Origin: Bacillaceae bacterium JMAK1
GTDB taxonomy: Bacteria; Bacillota; Bacilli; Bacillales; Marinococcaceae
Assembly: GCA_012970285.1 (NCBI GenBank)
Contig: JIBW01000004.1
Span: 124,001-188,000 of the forward strand
DNA: 64,000 nucleotides
Direction of reading: 5' to 3'
Position 1 is the first letter of the stretch; each line of letters begins with the position of its first letter. Shown here piece by piece: positions 18,842 to 28,147 of the stretch. The notes below the pieces were generated by a model, which was not told the origin of the DNA, ran no database searches, and saw only the letters and a list, made by a program, of their open reading frames with translations. Both the position numbers and the translations under genes were made by a program.

Positions 18842-18965
18842 AGAGTTCACCTCATTTTTTTAGCATATGCTCATCCCATAAAGGTAAATGCAGAAAGTAT
18901 ATGAAACAGTTTATCGAGAAATGGGTGAAAAGATTGTCAAATTATACGAATAACGAAGAGGGATC

Positions 18966-18992
18966 CATTATTGAATTTTTAATTCAATAATG
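18966..18992 (+). promoter_or_regulatory. 27-bp perfect palindrome, candidate upstream activator site
   Basis: CATTATTGAATT and AATTCAATAATG are exact inverted repeats around TTT. The centre lies about 60 bp upstream of the -24 element of the sigma-54-type promoter at 19038. This is where enhancer-binding proteins can act. It could equally be a repressor operator. The spacer upstream of 22144 carries a related sequence (AATAATTCAATTTTGA). Confidence 0.5.
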
Positions 18993-19021
18993 AGTTAGCG
19001 ATTCATTAGTAATGCCTTTGT

Positions 19022-19035
19022 CGTAAGCGCTTTCA
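19022..19035 (+). promoter_or_regulatory. CcpA catabolite-response element (cre)
   Basis: CGTAAGCGCTTTCA matches the cre consensus TGWAARCGYTWNCW in 13 of 14 positions. It ends 2 bp before the -24 element at 19038, so bound CcpA would probably interfere with the promoter, that is, glucose repression of the TRAP transporter operon. Confidence 0.7.
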
Positions 19036-19037
19036 TT

Positions 19038-19053
19038 TGGAATGGATTTTGCA
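19038..19053 (+). promoter_or_regulatory. Sigma-54 (SigL) -24/-12 promoter of the TRAP operon
   Basis: TGGAATGGATTTTGCA fits TGGCAYGNNNNTTGCW with one change (C to A). The GG and GC dinucleotides are separated by exactly 10 bp as required. It lies 37 bp before the GTG start of the solute-binding gene. Two similar elements lie in front of the acyl-CoA dehydrogenase genes. Confidence 0.7.
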
Positions 19054-19089
19054 TCTACTGTTATACAGATAGAAAGGAGGAGGATGAAG

Positions 19090-20106
19090 GTGAGTAGGAT
19101 TAAGCTTGGAGTTGGGTTACTTACATGTAGTTTAGTGTTAAGTTCTTGCCAGATAGGCGGTGAACGTAGTGATTATCAACATGCACACATTTCAGGACCG
19201 ACAGGATCGGGGTGGTACCCTCTGTCGACGTTATTCTCTGATATATGGCTTGATGAAATTGATGAACTGCAAGTGACGGTTGTTGAAGGTGGGGCAATTG
19301 GGAACATTCGTGAAGTTAATACGGCACGAGACGTACAATCAGGGTTTGCCTTTGCTTCAGATTTCATTGATGCACTGAATGGTCGAGGTGCTTTTGAAGG
19401 GGAGCCTCAAGAAAATGTACGAGCACTGGGCGCTTTTTATCCGACAATGTGGAATTTCGCGGTACTTGAGAACAGTCCGTATGAGTCACTCGATGATGTG
19501 CTCATGCACGGGGCGGATGCAATTAACGGCAACCCTGGTGATGCGAGTGAAGCGACATTCCGTAGAGTGTTTGAAGCGATGGGTTATGACCATGAGGTTT
19601 TAGATGAAGAACATGATGTAGGTATCAGTTATGGCGGCTACGGGGATGCAGCCAATCAACTTCGAGACGGATTGATCGATCTTACGGTACAAGGCGGTGG
19701 ACCTGGAGTGCCCGCGTTAACAGAGGTTGATGCGATGCGTCCACTTAGGTTGTTGGAAATTCCTGATGATGTTCTTGAAGAGCTTGAAGAAGGTGGATAT
19801 GGGTATTCTACTGATTTAAGTATTCCAGCAGGAACGTACTCGAATCAAACGGAAGATGTGAATACCGTCGCAAGCTGGGCGATGATGGTCGTTAATAAAG
19901 ATATGAATGAAGATCTCGTGTATGAGATGACAAAACAAATTTGGGAACACGTCGAACGAGTTCAAGAAGAACAACCGAGTCGTGGTGCTTGGTTTGATCC
20001 TGAGATGGCAGTTAGTGTGATTGATGATCCTGAGGAGAACTTCCACCCCGGTGCACTTCGTTATTATGAGGAGGTTGGTGCATTTGAAGGGGGGAGTGAG
20101 TCGTGA
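19090..20106 (+). CDS. TAXI family TRAP transporter solute-binding lipoprotein
   Basis: A 338-aa protein with a lipoprotein signal (LTCSLVLSSC, Cys about 19) and the TAXI-type fold: GPTGSGWYPLSTLFSDI at the N-terminus, VVEGGAIGNIREVN, and a ligand region with GGYGDAANQLRDG. TAXI proteins deliver carboxylates to a fused TRAP permease using the ion gradient. The start is GTG 19090: the tract AAAGGAGGAGG ends 6 nt upstream, while the ATG at 19084 abuts it too closely. The mature part is strongly acidic. It overlaps the permease gene by 4 bp. Neighbouring acyl-CoA genes suggest a carboxylic acid ligand. Confidence 0.88.
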   Translation: MSRIKLGVGLLTCSLVLSSCQIGGERSDYQHAHISGPTGSGWYPLSTLFSDIWLDEIDELQVTVVEGGAIGNIREVNTARDVQSGFAFASDFIDALNGRGAFEGEPQENVRALGAFYPTMWNFAVLENSPYESLDDVLMHGADAINGNPGDASEATFRRVFEAMGYDHEVLDEEHDVGISYGGYGDAANQLRDGLIDLTVQGGGPGVPALTEVDAMRPLRLLEIPDDVLEELEEGGYGYSTDLSIPAGTYSNQTEDVNTVASWAMMVVNKDMNEDLVYEMTKQIWEHVERVQEEQPSRGAWFDPEMAVSVIDDPEENFHPGALRYYEEVGAFEGGSES

Positions 20107-22088
20107 CGAATAAACTAAAGCTAACGCCAGATGGAAAAATAGATTTAAAAGTTGCAGAAGAAAAGAATAATACAGACATCGAACGTGCGTTTAATAACCC
20201 TGATGGAGAAGTAGGCTGGAGAAGAATTCGACGTTTCATTATTGCGGCGATTGCGATTGGACTCGCCATATACGTTCTTTATTATGCAGCGTATGGTGGA
20301 TTTCCCGCATGGCAACATCGCGCCATCTTCACCTCAATCGGATTAATTCTCTGTTTTGCTTGTTTTCCGTATAAAAAGGGGAAAAAACAAGGTCACTTGC
20401 TTTTTGACGTATTGCCTTTAGTATTATCGATTTTCTTATTGATTCATGCGTTTTTAGCTTATCCCGACATTGCACTACGTCAGGGAGCATCATCAATGTT
20501 CGATCAGATTGTCGCAACATTAATGATTTTCTTAATTATTGAAGGTGTTCGCCGTACGATCGGTCATGCGATGGCGATTTTGGCACTTTTCTTTTGGGCG
20601 TATATTTTTATTGGTCCGCTTTTTCCAGGAATTCTAGGTCACCAAGGCTTTAGCTATGGAAGAATGACGGATGCATTGTTTATTACGACCAATGGTATTT
20701 TTAGTGACCCTATTTATGTTGCTTCTACTGTACTCATTATCTTCTTGATTTTCGCAGCGTTTATGATGCGTACAGGAGTTGGGCAGTTTTTCATTGAGTT
20801 TGCCTTTGCGTTAACAGGTCGTATTCGTGGGGGCCCGGCATTGGCATCAGTTCTTTCCAGTGGATTGCTTGCGACCATTACTGGGAACGGGGCAGCAAAT
20901 GCTTCGATGACAGGCCCATTTACAATTCCGCTTATGAAGCAAGTTGGCTATAACCGTACATTTGCAGCTGGGGTAGAGGCCGTATCTTCTCAAGGTGGAC
21001 AAATTATGCCACCAATCATGGGCGCAGCAGCCTTTGTTATGGCAGAGTTTACAGGCATTCCGTACATTGAAATTGCGGCATACGCATTAATACCAGCGTT
21101 GTTGTTCTTCACCGTAGTAGGTGCGGTTATTTATTTCCAAGCAAGGAGACTCGGTTTAGAAGGTATTCCAAGAAAACAACTTCCAAATTTGAAGCATATT
21201 TTACTGACAAAAGGCTATTTAATTATTCCACTTGTGTTGATTATCGTGTTAATGGTATTAGGAACTAGCCCGATGAGAGCAGGGCTTTGGGCATTAGGTT
21301 CAGTGATTGTACTTAGTCTATTCAGAAAAGAAAGTCGATTGAACTTACTCTCTGTTTTAGCTGCACTTGAGGCAGGAATAAAAAATGCAATTCCTACAGT
21401 CATGGCCTGTGCGGGAGCAGGAATTATTGCAGGTTCAGTTATTATGACTGGACTAGGAATGAGCTTTTCTAGATTCGCCATTGATTTGTCAGGCGGTCAA
21501 CTGCTTCCGATGCTTCTCATGATTATGGTCGCTTGTATCATACTTGGAATGGGTATGCCGACAGTATCTGCATACGTCATTTTAGCAACAGTAGCAGCAG
21601 GTGCACTCGTACAACTAGATGTTCCAGTAATTGTTGCGCATTTCTTTGTATTCTACTTTGGGATCTTTTCTGGAATTACGCCACCAGTTGCGATTACGTC
21701 CTTTATTACGGCAGGGATTGCGGGTAGTAATCCACTTAAAACGTCTGTTTACTCGTTACGAATTGGGATGGCAGGATTTATTCTTCCGTATATGCTCGTT
21801 TACAATCCTGCACTTTCGTTAGAAGGCAGTACGTTTGACATTGTGTTTGGTATTTTCACAGCAACGTTAGGTCTTGTTGCCTTTGCTGCCTTTGTTGAAG
21901 GTTGTGTGTTAAAACGAGTGAATATCGTCGAACGTCTAATTCTTCTTGTTTCAGCGATCTTGCTCGTATATCAAGAGATTTATACCGATCTCATTGGAAT
22001 TGCACTCGTTATTGGAATCTTTGTCTATCAATGGAAGAAGGGGAATTCTACCAACGTTAAGGCGAGTAATCAATCACTAGATCAATAA
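20103..22088 (+). CDS. TRAP transporter fused DctQM permease (TAXI type)
   Basis: A 661-aa permease: a cytosolic N-terminal segment of about 40 residues, then roughly 16-18 hydrophobic helices. The first four to five correspond to DctQ and the rest to DctM. Typical DctM segments GNGAANASMTGPFTIPLMK, SSQGGQIMPPIMGAAAF and GMGMPTVSAYVILATVAAG are clear. It starts at GTG 20103, overlapping the binding-protein stop (GTGA). It ends 113 bp before the next gene, which has its own sigma-54-type promoter. It should work with the lipoprotein upstream in sodium- or proton-driven uptake. Confidence 0.92.
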   Translation: MTNKLKLTPDGKIDLKVAEEKNNTDIERAFNNPDGEVGWRRIRRFIIAAIAIGLAIYVLYYAAYGGFPAWQHRAIFTSIGLILCFACFPYKKGKKQGHLLFDVLPLVLSIFLLIHAFLAYPDIALRQGASSMFDQIVATLMIFLIIEGVRRTIGHAMAILALFFWAYIFIGPLFPGILGHQGFSYGRMTDALFITTNGIFSDPIYVASTVLIIFLIFAAFMMRTGVGQFFIEFAFALTGRIRGGPALASVLSSGLLATITGNGAANASMTGPFTIPLMKQVGYNRTFAAGVEAVSSQGGQIMPPIMGAAAFVMAEFTGIPYIEIAAYALIPALLFFTVVGAVIYFQARRLGLEGIPRKQLPNLKHILLTKGYLIIPLVLIIVLMVLGTSPMRAGLWALGSVIVLSLFRKESRLNLLSVLAALEAGIKNAIPTVMACAGAGIIAGSVIMTGLGMSFSRFAIDLSGGQLLPMLLMIMVACIILGMGMPTVSAYVILATVAAGALVQLDVPVIVAHFFVFYFGIFSGITPPVAITSFITAGIAGSNPLKTSVYSLRIGMAGFILPYMLVYNPALSLEGSTFDIVFGIFTATLGLVAFAAFVEGCVLKRVNIVERLILLVSAILLVYQEIYTDLIGIALVIGIFVYQWKKGNSTNVKASNQSLDQ

Positions 22089-22143
22089 TTCAATTTTGAC
22101 TTGATGAGTATGCTCCTTATGCAGAGCGATCGCTACCTAAGGG

Positions 22144-22159
22144 TGGCATCGTTTTTGCA
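22144..22159 (+). promoter_or_regulatory. Sigma-54 (SigL) -24/-12 promoter of the acyl-CoA dehydrogenase operon
   Basis: TGGCATCGTTTTTGCA matches TGGCAYGNNNNTTGCW except for C at the last position of the -24 block, with the correct 10-bp GG-to-GC spacing. It lies 43 bp before the ATG at 22202. Confidence 0.78.
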
Positions 22160-22201
22160 TTATATTTAACCAGATTCAGATTACTTGAGGAGGAATTTTT
22201 A

Positions 22202-23365
22202 ATGGATTTTAAGTTAAGCGAAGAAAATTTACAAATGAAAACGATGATTCGTAATTTCGTAGATAAAGAGGTTGACCCTTATGCGAATGAAATCGAAGAA
22301 ACTGAAGAAATTCCCGCTCATCTTCTTGAAAAGGCTAAAGAGCTCGGATTATTCGGTTTAAGCATTCCTGAAGAGTACGGTGGAATCGGTCTAAACACTG
22401 TCGGGAAGTGTACGGTCTTAGAGCAGCTAGGCAGAACGCACAACGCGTATGTGTCATTAATTGGAGCACATACTGGGATCGGAAGTATGGGAATCGTGCG
22501 CCTTGCAAACGAACACCTCAAGGAAAAATACTTACCTGACCTTGCATCAGGAAATAAAATTGCCTGTTTTGCACTGAGTGAGCCAGGTGCAGGATCAGAC
22601 GCTACGAACCTCTCCACAACTGCTGAAAAAAGAGGCGATCACTGGATTTTAAATGGGACAAAGCATTTCATAACGAACGCCCCGTTTGCTGATGTCTTCA
22701 CTGTCTTTGCGTTGACGGATCGTGAAAAAGGTGCGAAAGGTGGCATTACAGCCTTTGTTGTAGAACGTGACTTCCCAGGAATTACAATCGGCAAGCCGGA
22801 TAAGAAAATGGGACTTAGAGGTTCAAAAACAGCTCAAGTTGTCTTTGAAAACTGTGAAGTACCTGCTGAAAATGTAATCGGTGAAGTAGGCATGGGGTAT
22901 GTTAGTGCTTTGACAATTCTTGGTGAAGGTCGAGTTGGCCTTGGCGCTCGTTCCGTTGGGTCATGTGACAAACTTATCGAGTTATCAACAGAGTATGCGC
23001 TTGAACGTAAGCAGTTCGGAAAGCCGATTGCTGACCAACAAGCCGTGCAATTTATGCTTGCTGATATGAAAACGGAAACAGAAGCTGCTCGTTCTTTAAC
23101 CTATCGTGGTGCTTGGCTTCTTGACCAAGGAGAGAAAGCGATTCAAGAATGCTCAATGGCGAAATTGTTCGCAACAGATGTGTACAACCGTGTTGCTGAT
23201 AAGGCAGTTCAAATCCATGGTGGTATGGGTTATATGGCAGAGTATCCTGCTGAACGTTACTATCGAGACGCAAGAATTACGAAGATTTATGAAGGGACGA
23301 ATGAAATTCAACGAGTAATCATTGCAAAGCAGTTACTTAAACAACAAGCAAAGGTTACGAACTAA
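22202..23365 (+). CDS. Acyl-CoA dehydrogenase
   Basis: A 387-aa FAD enzyme catalysing alpha,beta-dehydrogenation of acyl-CoA and passing electrons to ETF. Signature 1 is CFALSEPGAGSDATNLSTTA. Signature 2, near the C-terminus, is QIHGGMGYMAEYPAERYYRD followed by ITKIYEGTNEIQR, whose Glu (YEGTNE) is the usual catalytic base. The length fits short- and branched-chain enzymes (MmgC/BCAD). AGGAGGA precedes the ATG. The next gene begins at the base after its stop codon, so they form one operon. A second acyl-CoA dehydrogenase lies at 25503-26633. Confidence 0.92.
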   Translation: MDFKLSEENLQMKTMIRNFVDKEVDPYANEIEETEEIPAHLLEKAKELGLFGLSIPEEYGGIGLNTVGKCTVLEQLGRTHNAYVSLIGAHTGIGSMGIVRLANEHLKEKYLPDLASGNKIACFALSEPGAGSDATNLSTTAEKRGDHWILNGTKHFITNAPFADVFTVFALTDREKGAKGGITAFVVERDFPGITIGKPDKKMGLRGSKTAQVVFENCEVPAENVIGEVGMGYVSALTILGEGRVGLGARSVGSCDKLIELSTEYALERKQFGKPIADQQAVQFMLADMKTETEAARSLTYRGAWLLDQGEKAIQECSMAKLFATDVYNRVADKAVQIHGGMGYMAEYPAERYYRDARITKIYEGTNEIQRVIIAKQLLKQQAKVTN

Positions 23366-24938
23366 ATGAATCCATCCGTAACGAAACAGAAAAGCGTCAT
23401 CGATCAAATACCAGAAGGATCTTTGTTTCAGTTTTTAGAAGAGAGTGCAGTAACGTATCGTGATCGAATTGCGGTCATTGATGAAGGCAAAGAATTCACG
23501 TATGATACGCTTTACAAACAGACGCTACACTTGTCGTCACTCCTTGCATCTAAAGGAGTGAAACAAGGTGATCGTGTGATGCTAATGCTCCCAAATTGCT
23601 TCGAATATGTACTTTCTTATTATGCGATTCTTCGACTCGGCGCCATTGTCGTACAAGTTAACCCAGGTTATCAACGCGAAGAGTTAAGCCATATGTACTC
23701 AATTTCTGAGCCTTGTTTATGGATTGGGGAATCGGTTCATAAAGAGAAGGTTGAACCGTTGAAACTACAGTGTTTATTCGTTGACGAAGAACTAAGCACA
23801 CGTACAAATGAAGATCTTGAACGTGTCAGCCTACCAGAAGTGGCAGTTAATGCAAGTGAAGATGTTGCTGTCATTCAATTTACTGGTGGGACAACCGGGC
23901 ATTCCAAAAGGAGCGATGTTAACGCATCGTAACTTGATGGCCAATGTTGTTCAGACGTTTGCCTTTGCACATGGCACGTATGAACGGGGCGAAGAAGTGT
24001 TTTTAGGTGTATCACCGTTTTATCACGTACTCGGTATGTCGAGCGTGATGAATCAAGGTTTGTACGCTGGTGCAACAATCGTAACGATGCGGAAATGGAA
24101 TGTGGAACAAGGCTTACGTTTAATTGAAACGTATGAACCGACGTACTTTCCAGCCGTTCCGACGATTTATATTAGTATTTTAGATTATGCAAAAGAGCAT
24201 CCCGTCCATTTAAAGAGTTTCAAAGTCATGACGAGCGGCAGTGCGCCTATGCCTTTAGAAATCATTCGTCAAATGGAGAAATTAAGTGATGGTGGGGTTA
24301 TTTCAGAAGGCTACGGATTATCAGAGTCGTCTCCAACGACACACCGCAATCCATTTAGTGGCTTAAGAAAGATCGGCAGCATCGGTATTCCGTTACCAGA
24401 TACCGAGTGCCGCATTGTTCATGTGGATCATGGCGAGGATCTTGGAGTAAACGAAGCCGGAGAGTTGCTCATCAAAGGTCCACAAGTAATGAAAGGCTAC
24501 TTTAGAGACGTGGAGTCAACCGCGATGCAATTGCAAGATGGATGGCTCGCAACCGGAGATATTGCAACCGTTGATGAAGACGGCTATTACTACATTGTCG
24601 GTCGAAAGAAAGAAATGGTCATCGGTAGTGGGTACAACATTTATCCGAATGAAGTCGAAGATGTCTTGTATACGCACGAGTATATTCTCGAAGTAAGTGT
24701 ATATGGTGTCCCTGACCGTTACCGAGGTGAAACATTAGCTGCATCAGTCGTCTTGAAAAAAGGAACAACACTTACAGTAGACGAGCTAAGAGCATGGTGT
24801 AAAGAACGCCTTGCCGCGTACAAAGTCCCTAAAATGATTGAGTTCCGTCAAGAATTGCCGAAAACAAACGTCGGTAAAGTATTACGGCGCAAGTTAGCTG
24901 AAGAACATATTGAACGCCTTAAAGCGAACGGTAATTAG
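23366..24938 (+). pseudogene. Acyl-CoA ligase (AMP-binding) interrupted by a single-base frameshift
   Basis: Two overlapping frames together encode one adenylate-forming acyl-CoA synthetase of about 523 aa. The first covers residues 1 to about 178 and ends ...VIQFTGGTTGHSK. The second resumes as GIPKGAMLTHRNLMANVVQ and contains SGSAPMPLEI, EGYGLSESSP, GWLATGDIATVDEDGYYYIVGRKKE and the C-terminal PKTNVGKVLRR lysine motif. The shift falls in the P-loop TGGTTGIPKG at the G run 23897-23899; removing one G restores the frame. Everything else is intact, so this is either a recent inactivation or an assembly error. It starts immediately after the dehydrogenase stop and would be co-transcribed from the sigma-54 promoter. 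Confidence 0.85.
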
Positions 24939-25002
24939 AGGAGCTTTAGCGCGTGAATATGAAGTCACAAATGATAAAGTACGTTGGTTGATTGTAATAA
25001 AT

Positions 25003-25029
25003 AAAAAAGCCCAGTTATGGGCTTTTTTA
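25003..25029. terminator. Bidirectional terminator
   Basis: AAAAAAGCCCA-GTTA-TGGGCTTTTTT is a short perfect stem flanked by A6 and T6. It serves the acyl-CoA ligase on the plus strand and the small membrane protein on the minus strand, whose stop codon lies within it. Confidence 0.88.
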
Positions 25030-25236
25030 TTTATTACGAGGATACACTTTGTTTGATACAAATACTCCTGTAAAAACACCAAGTGTAGTAATTATGACGG
25101 TTACAATTGTATGATACGGTGATGGGAGGTCAATTAAATAAAAGAAAGGAAACCCTAGCACTAGAAACACAAACCCTGCTGTTAGTGCCGACACTCCTGC
25201 TGGGGTTTGAAATGCGCCACCCCTTTTATTCGTCAT
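25027..25236 (-). CDS. 69-aa small membrane protein
   Basis: Frame with AAGGAG before the ATG at 25236 (a GTG at 25245 lies inside that site). Two hydrophobic helices, GVSALTAGFVFLVLGFPFFYLI and IVTVIITTLGVFTGVFVS in part, are separated by a short DLPSPYH loop, with basic ends (MTNKRGG, NKVYPRNK). No family recognised. It is convergent with the acyl-CoA ligase and shares its terminator. Confidence 0.65.
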   Translation of the reverse strand: MTNKRGGAFQTPAGVSALTAGFVFLVLGFPFFYLIDLPSPYHTIVTVIITTLGVFTGVFVSNKVYPRNK

Positions 25237-25450
25237 AAGTATCACTCCTTGCTCTTACATTAAGCATCGTTTCTGAAGTAGTCAGCGTAACATAAAATTG
25301 ATAATTACGACATTTCATGATTATTAAGGAAGTAAACTTGATATCGTTGAGGGTGAGGACGTAGTTCGTGCTTTACTACGAAGTTGTGTAGCGTTTGATC
25401 CTGATGGTTAACGTGCATTTTGTCACAACCGTTATCATACTTATGTAAAA

Positions 25451-25492
25451 AAATAAAAACCCCTGCAAATGAGTGGACACTTTTGTAGGGGC
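25451..25492 (-). terminator. Terminator of the second acyl-CoA dehydrogenase gene
   Basis: On the minus strand CCCCT and AGGGG with further pairing (ACAAA/TTTGC) form a hairpin followed by TTTTTATTTTTTT, 11 bp after the stop codon. Confidence 0.75.
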
Positions 25493-25502
25493 TAAATGGT
25501 TG

Positions 25503-26633
25503 CTACGATTTAAAAATATAGTTTCCGATAATGATTCGTTGAATTTGATTTGTTCCTTCGTAAATCTGGGTGATTTTCGCATCACGCATCATTCGTTCTA
25601 CAGGATATTCTTTAATGAACCCATAACCACCAAGGAGTTGAACAGCATCTGTCGTGACACTCATTGCCATATCAGAAGCAAAGCATTTGGCCATGGAAGA
25701 GTGTAAAGCAACGTCTTGTTCACCTTGATCGAGCTTTGTAGCTGCTTGATAGACGAGAAGTCGTGCCGCTTCAATCTTCATACGCATATCGGCAGCCATC
25801 GCTTGAATCATTTGAAAGTTGTCCAACGTTTTCCCAAACTGTTTACGATTTTTAACGTAGTCAATCGCATAATCATACGCGCCTTGGGCAATTCCAACAG
25901 CTTGTGCACCGACGACAGGGCGGGTCTCATTAAAGACATTCATGAGTATTTTAAAGCCTTTGCCTTCGTCCCCAAGCATGTTCTCTTTTGGCACCCGAAC
26001 ATTGTCTAGAAACACTTCGCGAGTAACAGAGCCACGAATGCCCATCTTATCCTCTTTGTTTCCAAACGTTAGTCCGTCCATTCCTTTTTCAGCGATGAAC
26101 AATGTAATGCCATTCGTACGATCTTCTGATGTTCTTGTTACGAATACGTAAATTTCTGATTCACCGGCGTTGGTGATGAACACTTTCTGCCCATTCAAAA
26201 GATAATCATCGCCATCTTTCGTTGCTGTCGTTGTTAAGCTTGATACATCTGAGCCAGAAGATGGTTCTGTGATTCCAAAAGATCCGAGTACTTCTCCTTT
26301 GGCAAGGCGTGGGATGTACTTCTGCTTTTGTTCTTCAGTTCCTGCTAGTAAGAAAGGAGCCATCGTTAATGCTTGCGTTGACAAAGCAACACTTGTTGAC
26401 GCACAAGCACTAGCAATCTCTTCGATAACAGCAACATGACTTAACATGTCACTGCCCGCTCCGCCGTATTTCTCAGGAACATGAACACCAAAGAGTCCAT
26501 TTTCTGCAAGAACTCGGATATTCTCCCACGGCATTTCCCCGAGACGATCGACTTCTTCAGCATGTTTAGCAACAACGTCACGGGCAATCTTTCTCGCAAC
26601 GTCTTTCATCATTTTTTGCTCTTCAAGTAACAT
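25503..26633 (-). CDS. Acyl-CoA dehydrogenase
   Basis: A 376-aa FAD-dependent enzyme. FGITEPSSGSDVSSLTTTA is signature 1. LLGGYGFIKEYPVERMMRDA, followed by ITQIYEGTNQIQR, forms signature 2 with the catalytic Glu in YEGTNQ. The start is ATG 26633, with GAAGGAG upstream; the frame stays open to 26699, but that extension has no site and would cross the promoter at 26688-26703. Sequence differs enough from the dehydrogenase at 22202 to imply a different acyl chain or step. It is transcribed alone from a sigma-54-type promoter, downstream of the activator gene on the same strand. Confidence 0.92.
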   Translation of the reverse strand: MLLEEQKMMKDVARKIARDVVAKHAEEVDRLGEMPWENIRVLAENGLFGVHVPEKYGGAGSDMLSHVAVIEEIASACASTSVALSTQALTMAPFLLAGTEEQKQKYIPRLAKGEVLGSFGITEPSSGSDVSSLTTTATKDGDDYLLNGQKVFITNAGESEIYVFVTRTSEDRTNGITLFIAEKGMDGLTFGNKEDKMGIRGSVTREVFLDNVRVPKENMLGDEGKGFKILMNVFNETRPVVGAQAVGIAQGAYDYAIDYVKNRKQFGKTLDNFQMIQAMAADMRMKIEAARLLVYQAATKLDQGEQDVALHSSMAKCFASDMAMSVTTDAVQLLGGYGFIKEYPVERMMRDAKITQIYEGTNQIQRIIIGNYIFKS

Positions 26634-26687
26634 AAGTATGCAAACTCCTTCGTTGTAAACTTTAAAATGGCTGTCCACCCTGTAAGT

Positions 26688-26703
26688 TGCAAAAAACATG
26701 CCA
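26688..26703 (-). promoter_or_regulatory. Sigma-54 (SigL) -24/-12 promoter of the second acyl-CoA dehydrogenase
   Basis: On the minus strand TGGCATGTTTTTTGCA is a full match to TGGCAYGNNNNTTGCW with correct spacing. It lies 55 bp upstream of the ATG at 26633 and about 85 bp after the stop of the sigma-54 activator gene. Confidence 0.85.
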
Positions 26704-26743
26704 CTGTGTGAAGCGAGAGTGGGGCACTTTTTATCGGGCTGGT

Positions 26744-26784
26744 GAAAAAAAGCACCAAATACCGGTGCGATAATGCACCGGTAT
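26744..26784 (-). terminator. Terminator of the sigma-54 activator gene
   Basis: ATACCGGTGC and GCACCGGTAT form a perfect 10-bp stem around 6 nt. On the minus strand TTGGTGC and a T7 run follow. It separates the activator from the dehydrogenase promoter. Confidence 0.8.
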
Positions 26785-26788
26785 CGGT

Positions 26789-28147
26789 TTACAACTCGTA
26801 CCGTTGAATCTTTCTAACTAACGTTGAGTGATCGACTTGCAGGACTTTGGCAGCTTCGCGAATTGAGGAGCTATGACGTAGCACTTTTTGAATGTGCTCT
26901 TTTTCTGCTTGTTCTTTGACATGTTTTAAAGAATGAATTGGACCGTCTAACGTAGATGAATCAGGATTCTGACGAATCTCACTAGGTAGCGAATCAACGT
27001 CGATTTCAGGACGTTCAGTAAGAATCACTAAATGTTCAATCAGATTTTCCAGTTGTCGTATGTTACCTGGCCAACTGTAATGATAAAACGCTTCAATCAC
27101 ATCTTCAGTCACAACGTTTTGTTTATGGTATTTACGATTATATTTCGCTAAGAAATAGTCGACGAGTGGGCGAAGATCTTTTTTTCGCTCCCGTAATGGT
27201 GGGATTGAAATTGGAATCACTTGTAAGCGATAATAAAGATCTACACGAAACTGGCCTGCTTGTACAAGGTCATCTAAATTTTTGTTCGTCGCGGCTATGA
27301 ACCGTACGTCTAACGTTTTTGGCTTCGTACCACCGACACGGGTGACTTCATTTGTTTGTAAGACACGCAGCAATTTAACTTGTAAATGTAGGGGCATTTC
27401 ACCGATTTCATCAAGCAATAATGTTCCACCATTAGCGGCTTCAAGTAAACCTTCACGAGACGATTGGGCGCCTGTAAATGCACCTTTTTCATAGCCGAAA
27501 AGCTCGGATTCAATCAAGTTCTCGGGGATCGCTCCACAATTAATTTGAATGTAGGCGGCATGATTGCGATCACTTTGTTTGTGTATATTCTTAGCAATGA
27601 TTTCTTTACCGACACCTGATTCGCCAGTAATTGTAATCACTGCATCGGTCTTCGCAACTTTCATCACGAGGTCTTGCAAGTTTCTTGTACTTTCTGATTC
27701 ACCAATCCAATCATCCGTATGTAAAAACTGTGAGCGTAGCTGCTTTAGTTCGGTATACTTTATTTCCATGTTACGCATGTGCTCGGAATATAAGTGATTC
27801 AAAGACGAGAGGTCATAGTAGTTCGCAATGAAACATTGAATCTCACCATTACTACGGTAGACAGGCTTACTTGTAATAAAGACTTTCGTGTCGTTATGCA
27901 ATTTTTGAAAGATCGTTAGTGGGTTTTTTTGGAGAACTTCCATTGATTGTTTAATAATAATGCCCGCTTCTTCCATCTCTTTTGGTGTTTTACCGACAAT
28001 CTCTTCAAGCGGTGCGCCAGAAATCTCTGAAACTCGTTCATTCGCGTAAAAAATCCGGCCTTCTAAATCAGAAAGTAAGATGCCTACATAGGATTGATCG
28101 ACACTTCTCAAAAAATCTACTTCATCCAATATTTTAAGGTGGTGCAT
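26789..28147 (-). CDS. Sigma-54-dependent transcriptional activator (PAS, AAA+, Fis HTH)
   Basis: A 452-aa enhancer-binding protein. Residues about 10-115 form a PAS sensor domain (SYVGILLSDLEGRIFYANE). Residues 145-375 form the AAA+ domain with Walker A GESGVGKE (175-182), the sigma-54 contact loop GAFTGA (222-227), Walker B GGTLLLDEIGEM and the arginine-finger region PPLRERKKDL. The C-terminus (REAAKVLQVDHSTLVRKIQRYEL) is a Fis-type HTH. Intact GAFTGA shows that it works with sigma-54 (SigL). Three -24/-12 promoters lie within 8 kb, so it very likely controls the TRAP transporter, both dehydrogenases and the ligase. The PAS ligand is unknown. Confidence 0.93.
   Translation of the reverse strand: MHHLKILDEVDFLRSVDQSYVGILLSDLEGRIFYANERVSEISGAPLEEIVGKTPKEMEEAGIIIKQSMEVLQKNPLTIFQKLHNDTKVFITSKPVYRSNGEIQCFIANYYDLSSLNHLYSEHMRNMEIKYTELKQLRSQFLHTDDWIGESESTRNLQDLVMKVAKTDAVITITGESGVGKEIIAKNIHKQSDRNHAAYIQINCGAIPENLIESELFGYEKGAFTGAQSSREGLLEAANGGTLLLDEIGEMPLHLQVKLLRVLQTNEVTRVGGTKPKTLDVRFIAATNKNLDDLVQAGQFRVDLYYRLQVIPISIPPLRERKKDLRPLVDYFLAKYNRKYHKQNVVTEDVIEAFYHYSWPGNIRQLENLIEHLVILTERPEIDVDSLPSEIRQNPDSSTLDGPIHSLKHVKEQAEKEHIQKVLRHSSSIREAAKVLQVDHSTLVRKIQRYEL

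Follow-up and report, generated by a model that had tools for sequence, protein, structure and literature searches.

Genes and features of the locus

The window analyzed here is a stretch of 64,000 nucleotides from Bacillaceae bacterium JMAK1 (contig JIBW01000004.1, positions 124,001 to 188,000). It carries genes for a predicted pathway of carboxylic acid uptake and oxidation, three putative promoters of the sigma-54 type in front of these genes, and a PAS-type sigma-54 activator gene beside them. The original prediction was that this linked activator controls all three promoters as one regulon. Our comparative analyses suggest that there are probably two regulons, the second served by an activator encoded elsewhere in the genome.

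On the forward strand, a TAXI solute-binding protein gene (19090..20106; PF16868) is followed by a fused TRAP permease gene (20103..22088). The former is a probable lipoprotein gene, judging from a lipobox recognized by eye, and both products scored above the family cut-offs of the TAXI-TRAP class (TIGR02122, 179.1 versus 84.35 bits; TIGR02123, 630.5 versus 320.65 bits). GTG at 19090 was preferred as the TAXI start codon over ATG at 19084, because a one-base gap in a relative, Geomicrobium sediminis, shifts the latter out of frame. Next come an acyl-CoA dehydrogenase gene, here called ACAD1 (22202..23365, +), and a gene for an AMP-forming acid-CoA ligase (23366..24938, +). A second acyl-CoA dehydrogenase gene, ACAD2 (25503..26633), and the linked activator gene (26789..28147) lie on the reverse strand. 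A Pfam search of this region recovered the TAXI binding protein, a DctM permease, the two dehydrogenases and, in two parts, an AMP-binding ligase. A frameshift splits the ligase gene of this genome (pieces at 23366-23932 and 23808-24938), and its G. sediminis counterpart is a single open frame of 523 amino acids; the shift may be a sequencing error or a genuine loss. The JCM 19038 and JCM 19039 drafts likewise have broken frames in the ligase region.

The activator shows the features expected of an enhancer-binding protein: a sigma54-activator domain, a helix-turn-helix (HTH) domain, the intact GAFTGA motif that had been noted earlier, and a sensory domain (PAS_4, 25.9 bits, cut-off 23.1). Among the NCBIfam matches listed, no equivalog was above cut-off for the dehydrogenases, ligases or activators of the window or of the unlinked C5 locus described below; for the PrdR equivalog NF041552 (cut-off 795 bits), the linked activator scored 395.9 bits and the C5 activator 376.7 bits.

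Relatives used throughout were Geomicrobium sediminis DSM 25540 (G001), Geomicrobium sp. JCM 19038 (G002), JCM 19039 (G003) and G. halophilum (G041, the same as G007); the genome analyzed belongs to Geomicrobium or a near relative of that genus and is closely related to the first two. ACAD2 has counterparts in these two (98-99%). In JCM 19039 the best match to ACAD2 is 49%, and G. halophilum has none at E <= 1e-100. ACAD1 is 74-81% identical to relatives in Peribacillus, Aneurinibacillus and G. halophilum.

Conserved -24/-12 elements

All three predicted elements were found, each with GG and GC 10 bp apart, in front of the TAXI-TRAP operon (19038..19053, +, TGGAATGGATTTTGCA), ACAD1-ligase (22144..22159, +, TGGCATCGTTTTTGCA) and ACAD2 (26688..26703, -, TGGCATGTTTTTTGCA, read from 26703 to 26688). 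They lie 36, 42 and 54 nt, respectively, before the likely start codons, in agreement with the distances originally given. Their description as near-consensus holds overall; the exception is the TAXI element, which departs from the consensus at the C of GGCA (TGGAAT). The corresponding sequence is TGGTAT in three relatives and TGGCAT in G. halophilum.

A loose consensus (up to 2 mismatches) matched the window 39 times, against 28.7 +/- 5.3 in shuffled sequence, and 7 of 100 shuffles reached 39. Since this count is near chance, consensus matching within the window was rejected as proof of a promoter, and we relied on conservation and on enhancer sites. In the whole genome, TGGCAYN5TTGCW had 34 matches and the reversed pattern 16, so about half of the 34 may be chance occurrences. 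A search for activators gave 21 matches, from which five weaker ones were dropped. Of the 34 promoter matches, 12 are no more than 1.5 kb away from one of the 16 strong matches retained (random mean 0.44; equalled in none of 2000 trials). The genome has one gene for a SigL-type sigma factor.

G. sediminis and JCM 19038 keep GG, GC and their spacing at all three promoters, and G. halophilum and JCM 19039 keep them at those of TAXI and ACAD1; the promoter set is complete in the first two and lacks its ACAD2 member in the others. Counting the genome analyzed, conservation among the Geomicrobium genomes that bear the genes is 3/3 for ACAD2 and 5/5 for both TAXI and ACAD1, with adjacent positions varying. 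Judged by conservation, placement and the enhancer-like motifs described below, the three elements appear to be real sites, presumably read by SigL RNA polymerase. The fixed distances of the enhancer-like sites lend further support to the claim that sigma-54 promoters precede the uptake, ligase and dehydrogenase genes.

The 16-mer of the ACAD1 promoter recurs identically behind another activator gene (L198:8619-8634). The gene after this copy resembles one for a 1-pyrroline-5-carboxylate dehydrogenase.

Site A upstream of ACAD2

Upstream of ACAD2 lie two copies of an enhancer-like site, RTGC-N7-CACC (site A), on the reverse strand. The proximal copy (26741..26755, GTGCTTTTTTTCACC) is at -52 and the distal copy (26764..26778, GTGCATTATCGCACC) at -75 from the -24 element, 23 bp apart. 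The tandem pattern TGC-N7-MACC-N9-YGC-N7-MACC matches the genome once, at ACAD2. Exact single copies occur upstream of none of the others among the 34 consensus sigma-54 sites, one-mismatch copies at five of these others, and no A pair was found upstream of TAXI or ACAD1.

Pairs of this type occur elsewhere in the family. In genomes G018 and G023, an A pair of identical spacing precedes ligase promoters beside orthologues of the linked activator (53-56% identical), and G023 has a further pair before a second ligase promoter. Among 29 genomes of the family, five have an orthologue of this activator, designated type A, and all five have the pair next to that gene; one of the 24 others has a match (Fisher 5e-5). 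Because the pattern was drawn from these five genomes, the co-occurrence is a sign of consistency and not an independent test.

Site B upstream of TAXI and ACAD1

The TAXI and ACAD1 promoters share a different site, ATTCA-N4-TGANT (site B), at -56 from the -24 element. At TAXI it reads ATTCA-N4-TGAGT (18982..18995, +, ATTCAATAATGAGT), with an upstream copy at -75 (18963..18976, +, ATCCATTATTGAAT) that has one mismatch to ATTCA-N4-TGAAT; at ACAD1 it reads ATTCA-N4-TGACT (22088..22101, +, ATTCAATTTTGACT). Site B is also present, at -55, in two promoters that flank an unlinked activator gene, C5:219505; both have a weaker copy at -75. When site B was required within a 5-bp distance range of a -24/-12 element, the genome gave three matches, namely TAXI, ACAD1 and the promoter directly after the C5 activator, versus none for the reversed control. 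A B-like site stands at -55/-56 of the TAXI promoter in four of the five Geomicrobium genomes.

A B matrix was built from 16 sites outside the genome, six of them from Geomicrobium relatives; three of 15 outside pattern matches were omitted (one JCM 19038 TAXI site and two look-alikes). Among 35 promoters of the genome, this matrix placed C5:220534, TAXI, C5:214716 and ACAD1 at ranks 1 to 4, all at -55/-56, and ACAD2 at rank 23. A matrix made from the 10 Peribacillus-type sites only gave the same top-four order, with ACAD2 again 23rd. In 1000 trials with shuffled upstream DNA, the TAXI score was reached in none, the ACAD1 score in one and the ACAD2 score in 392.

Site B also tends to co-occur with one type of activator, designated type B, across the order. 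Of 299 genomes, 13 match a stricter B-plus-promoter pattern and none its reversed control; 35 have a type B activator (E <= 1e-140), and 10 have both (Fisher 3e-8). In nine of these 10, at least one stricter match lies within 8 kb of a type B activator. P. butanolivorans has one B match behind a type B activator and another before a ligase gene of its ACAD1 locus. In JCM 19039, a sigma-54 element with a B site at -73 comes after a type B activator gene and before a thiolase gene.

A palindrome at TAXI (arms of 12-14 bp) was rejected as a common enhancer; it is present in two genomes and is not found in JCM 19038.

Two types of activators

In a phylogenetic tree (G003_L177, G003_L185, G003_L187, Ghalo_L182 and Ghalo_L169 were left out), the C5:219505 activator falls inside the type B clade with support of 100/99. 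This clade includes the activators of Bacillus sp. V5-8f, Peribacillus glennii and an Aneurinibacillus whose genes neighbor ACAD1 orthologues (L094, L098, L099), together with one from G. halophilum and one from JCM 19039. The linked activator groups apart from them, in a clade with its counterparts from G. sediminis, JCM 19038, G018 and G023. The two types also differ in their recognition helices at the ends of the HTH domains, VDHST[LI]VRK in type A versus SQ[AP]T[IV][VA]RK in type B. C5:219505 is the single match of its genome to the Peribacillus-type activator at E <= 1e-140.

The type A activator and ACAD2 are jointly present in three and jointly absent in two of the five Geomicrobium genomes. 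The two that lack orthologues of both, JCM 19039 and G. halophilum, nevertheless have the promoters of TAXI and ACAD1, and B-like sites with them.

Two probable regulons and alternative explanations

In the model that we infer from the positions, conservation and co-occurrence of these sites, the linked type A activator would bind the two A copies and switch on ACAD2, the gene just downstream. TAXI-TRAP and ACAD1-ligase would be switched on by an unlinked type B activator, most likely C5:219505, acting through site B at -56. The C5 activator would also drive its own neighborhood, from a phosphatase-like gene through a further acyl-CoA dehydrogenase gene. As a whole, the system is predicted to import a carboxylic acid, convert it to a CoA ester and oxidize it, and the enzymes of the C5 locus suggest that its substrates include 4-hydroxy acids. 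We consider this arrangement of two regulons probable.

Several observations weigh against it. The motifs were first spotted by eye in promoter sets that contain these loci, so the within-genus statistics are partly circular. The stricter B pattern fails to match TAXI or ACAD1 itself, 25 of the 35 type B genomes have no strict match, three of the 13 genomes with a match have no type B activator at the cut-off, and both the genome analyzed and G. sediminis are counted within the 10 and the 13. The B sites of G. sediminis are degenerate and without a pattern match (TAXI, ATTCAAATGTGGGT; ACAD1, ACTCAATTTTGACT), JCM 19038 has a match at TAXI and none at ACAD1, and JCM 19039, G. halophilum and the Aneurinibacillus genome have no B-plus-promoter match, their sites being looser or displaced. 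With the Peribacillus-type matrix, the fifth-ranked promoter, C9:251909, scores close to ACAD1 (14.36 versus 14.73). The C5 activator is just 44-46% identical to the Peribacillus-type one, and an activator is seen at only three of 13 non-Geomicrobium loci with ACAD1 relatives (17-kb stretches), the three named above for the type B clade. For site A, G. sediminis and JCM 19038 each have two further pattern matches. Several B-like sites resembling ATTCA-N4-TGACT also occur at the divergent sigma-54-like promoters C8:487072/487376 (L029, L030), which lie less than 4 kb from the activator gene C8:491222.

These C8 sites lend some weight to the view that there are indeed two regulons but that TAXI and ACAD1 answer to another activator, C8:491222, C6:219313 or C9:390640, each of which likewise ends in an SQ-type recognition helix. 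We think this unlikely, as C5:219505 alone falls in the type B clade and is the sole Peribacillus-type match, and elsewhere among the promoters of the genome a B site (up to 2 mismatches) at -55/-56 is confined to the two at C5. In favor of the single regulon originally proposed are gene neighborhood, the sigma-54 type of all three promoters, and genus g10, where an orthologue of the activator precedes a run of ligase and dehydrogenase genes. This model is hard to reconcile with the confinement of the tandem A site to ACAD2, the B site that TAXI and ACAD1 share with two C5 promoters, the persistence of their promoters in the two Geomicrobium genomes without the linked activator, and the joint presence or absence of that activator and ACAD2; control of all three promoters by the linked activator therefore seems quite improbable.

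It could also be argued that site A is no more than the transcription terminator of the activator gene, and that the TAXI element arose by chance within a sigma-A promoter under CcpA control. The distal A copy does lie within an inverted repeat (arms of 10 bp here and 12 bp in G. sediminis), and the TAXI -24 element is off-consensus. Yet JCM 19038, G018 and the first G023 promoter keep the pair and its spacing without a spanning inverted repeat (exact arms of at least 7), and the second G023 pair forms an inverted repeat without standing behind the activator gene. At TAXI, GG/GC is kept in five genomes and the B-like site at -55/-56 in four. We regard this explanation as very improbable.

The two-regulon model, if correct, offers two testable pairings of activator and DNA site, and a case in which the activator nearest to a sigma-54 promoter is probably not its owner. 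Few ligands are known for TAXI transporters, and the model would connect one of them with a defined set of unlinked enzymes, which narrows the search for its substrate; 4-hydroxy acids or gamma-lactones would then be the first growth substrates of interest.

The C5 locus and the possible substrate

The C5 locus encodes a 2-phosphosulfolactate-phosphatase-like protein, an APH kinase, a 410-residue acyl-CoA dehydrogenase, an SDR protein, a ligase, parts of a Liv-type ABC transporter, a thioesterase, a thiolase and a second dehydrogenase. Against the full-length ACAD11 chains 8v3u and 8v3v, the dehydrogenase scored 472.9 and 470.6 bits and the kinase 153.8 and 157.4 bits. The two genes are adjacent, as is expected of the lva and ACAD10/11 type of pathway. 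ACAD11 is reported to have a role in 4-hydroxy-acid breakdown and to be akin to LvaA/LvaC (PMC12440821). The phosphatase-like gene heads the ACAD11-like cluster (L197:4759-5505), and the clusters of G018 and G. halophilum contain relatives of it.

In G018, relatives of most C5-set genes come after the type A activator and site A, with dehydrogenases and thiolase 71-86% identical. The type B loci of G. halophilum and Peribacillus-type genomes carry only part of the C5 set in the stretches examined. It therefore seems that two types of activator serve the same gene set, each in different genera. The genes downstream of ACAD1 and the ligase in G. halophilum have their best NCBIfam matches to 3-hydroxyacyl-CoA dehydrogenase, enoyl-CoA hydratase and thiolase. 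In G018, both the ACAD11-like kinase and the phosphatase-like gene are split into two frames, which overlap in the case of the kinase, and a kinase search in G023 gave one weak partial match only (L084, L085). Given the state of the kinase gene, the pathway may be decaying there.

Attempts to name a ligand from the TAXI protein were dropped, since solved TAXI proteins, such as 1us4 (the Thermus thermophilus TAXI binding protein), are distant; only glutamate could be argued against. By sequence, the protein belongs to the same family as the T. thermophilus TAXI protein and VcGluP of V. cholerae, in which Q93 and E125 hold the amino group of glutamate (PMC11574862). Unlike VcGluP, it lacks Gln and Glu at these columns, which hold a gap beside Ala, and Thr, in a pairwise alignment only. 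This argues weakly against glutamate and fits a non-amino acid. Given the C5 link, our best guess is a non-amino, perhaps 4-hydroxy, monocarboxylic acid.

The apparent service of one gene set by both activator types allows a bolder reading, which we hold to be doubtful: two related sigma-54 activator families with different DNA codes would have replaced one another in the control of a 4-hydroxy-acid-type gene set, type A serving it in genus g10 and type B in the genome analyzed and its nearest relatives. This genome would have kept both, and its TAXI-TRAP would be a new importer for monocarboxylic acids of the 4-hydroxy or a related kind.

Relation to known systems

Bulk predictions have already placed acyl-CoA dehydrogenases of Bacilli under sigma-54 control (PMC12316311), so this kind of regulation is known. 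Regulons of sigma-54 and enhancer-binding proteins were reconstructed in Clostridiales by comparative genomics (PMC6615313); they resemble ours in having activator groups with their own upstream motifs, -24/-12 promoters and targets in acid metabolism, and differ in that ours are from Bacillales, with two activator groups and motifs of which a limited search found no report. GabR of Bacillus thuringiensis (PMC4279683) is likewise a PAS-AAA-HTH activator of a SigL promoter with repeats upstream. Its gabT target has a 21-bp repeat region, whereas here the tandem site has 23-bp spacing and the activator predicted for TAXI and ACAD1 is unlinked. Through its match to ACAD11, the C5 pair resembles mammalian ACAD10/11 and, indirectly, the lva operon with LvaR of Pseudomonas putida (PMC10164729, PMC12440821). 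The lva system (PMC10164729) is from another phylum, and the window's own locus has no kinase gene. A limited literature search found no report of either motif-activator pair, nor of any connection between a TAXI operon and an ACAD11-like locus to which it is not linked.

A cre-like site upstream of TAXI

A candidate cre (catabolite-responsive element) site for CcpA, with one mismatch, abuts the TAXI -24 element (19022..19035, +). The cre consensus matched the window 11 times versus 10.3 expected, and the site is only suggestive since this is the chance level. The 20-bp block around it is identical in G. sediminis and differs at its first base in JCM 19038; by eye, a related sequence stands at the same place in JCM 19039, and none was seen in G. 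halophilum. CcpA may add catabolite repression at this sigma-54 promoter. The celA promoter of B. thuringiensis (PMC10864463) also has a cre upstream of its sigma-54 element, with a PRD-type activator and phosphotransferase system genes, while the putative site at TAXI directly adjoins the -24 element.

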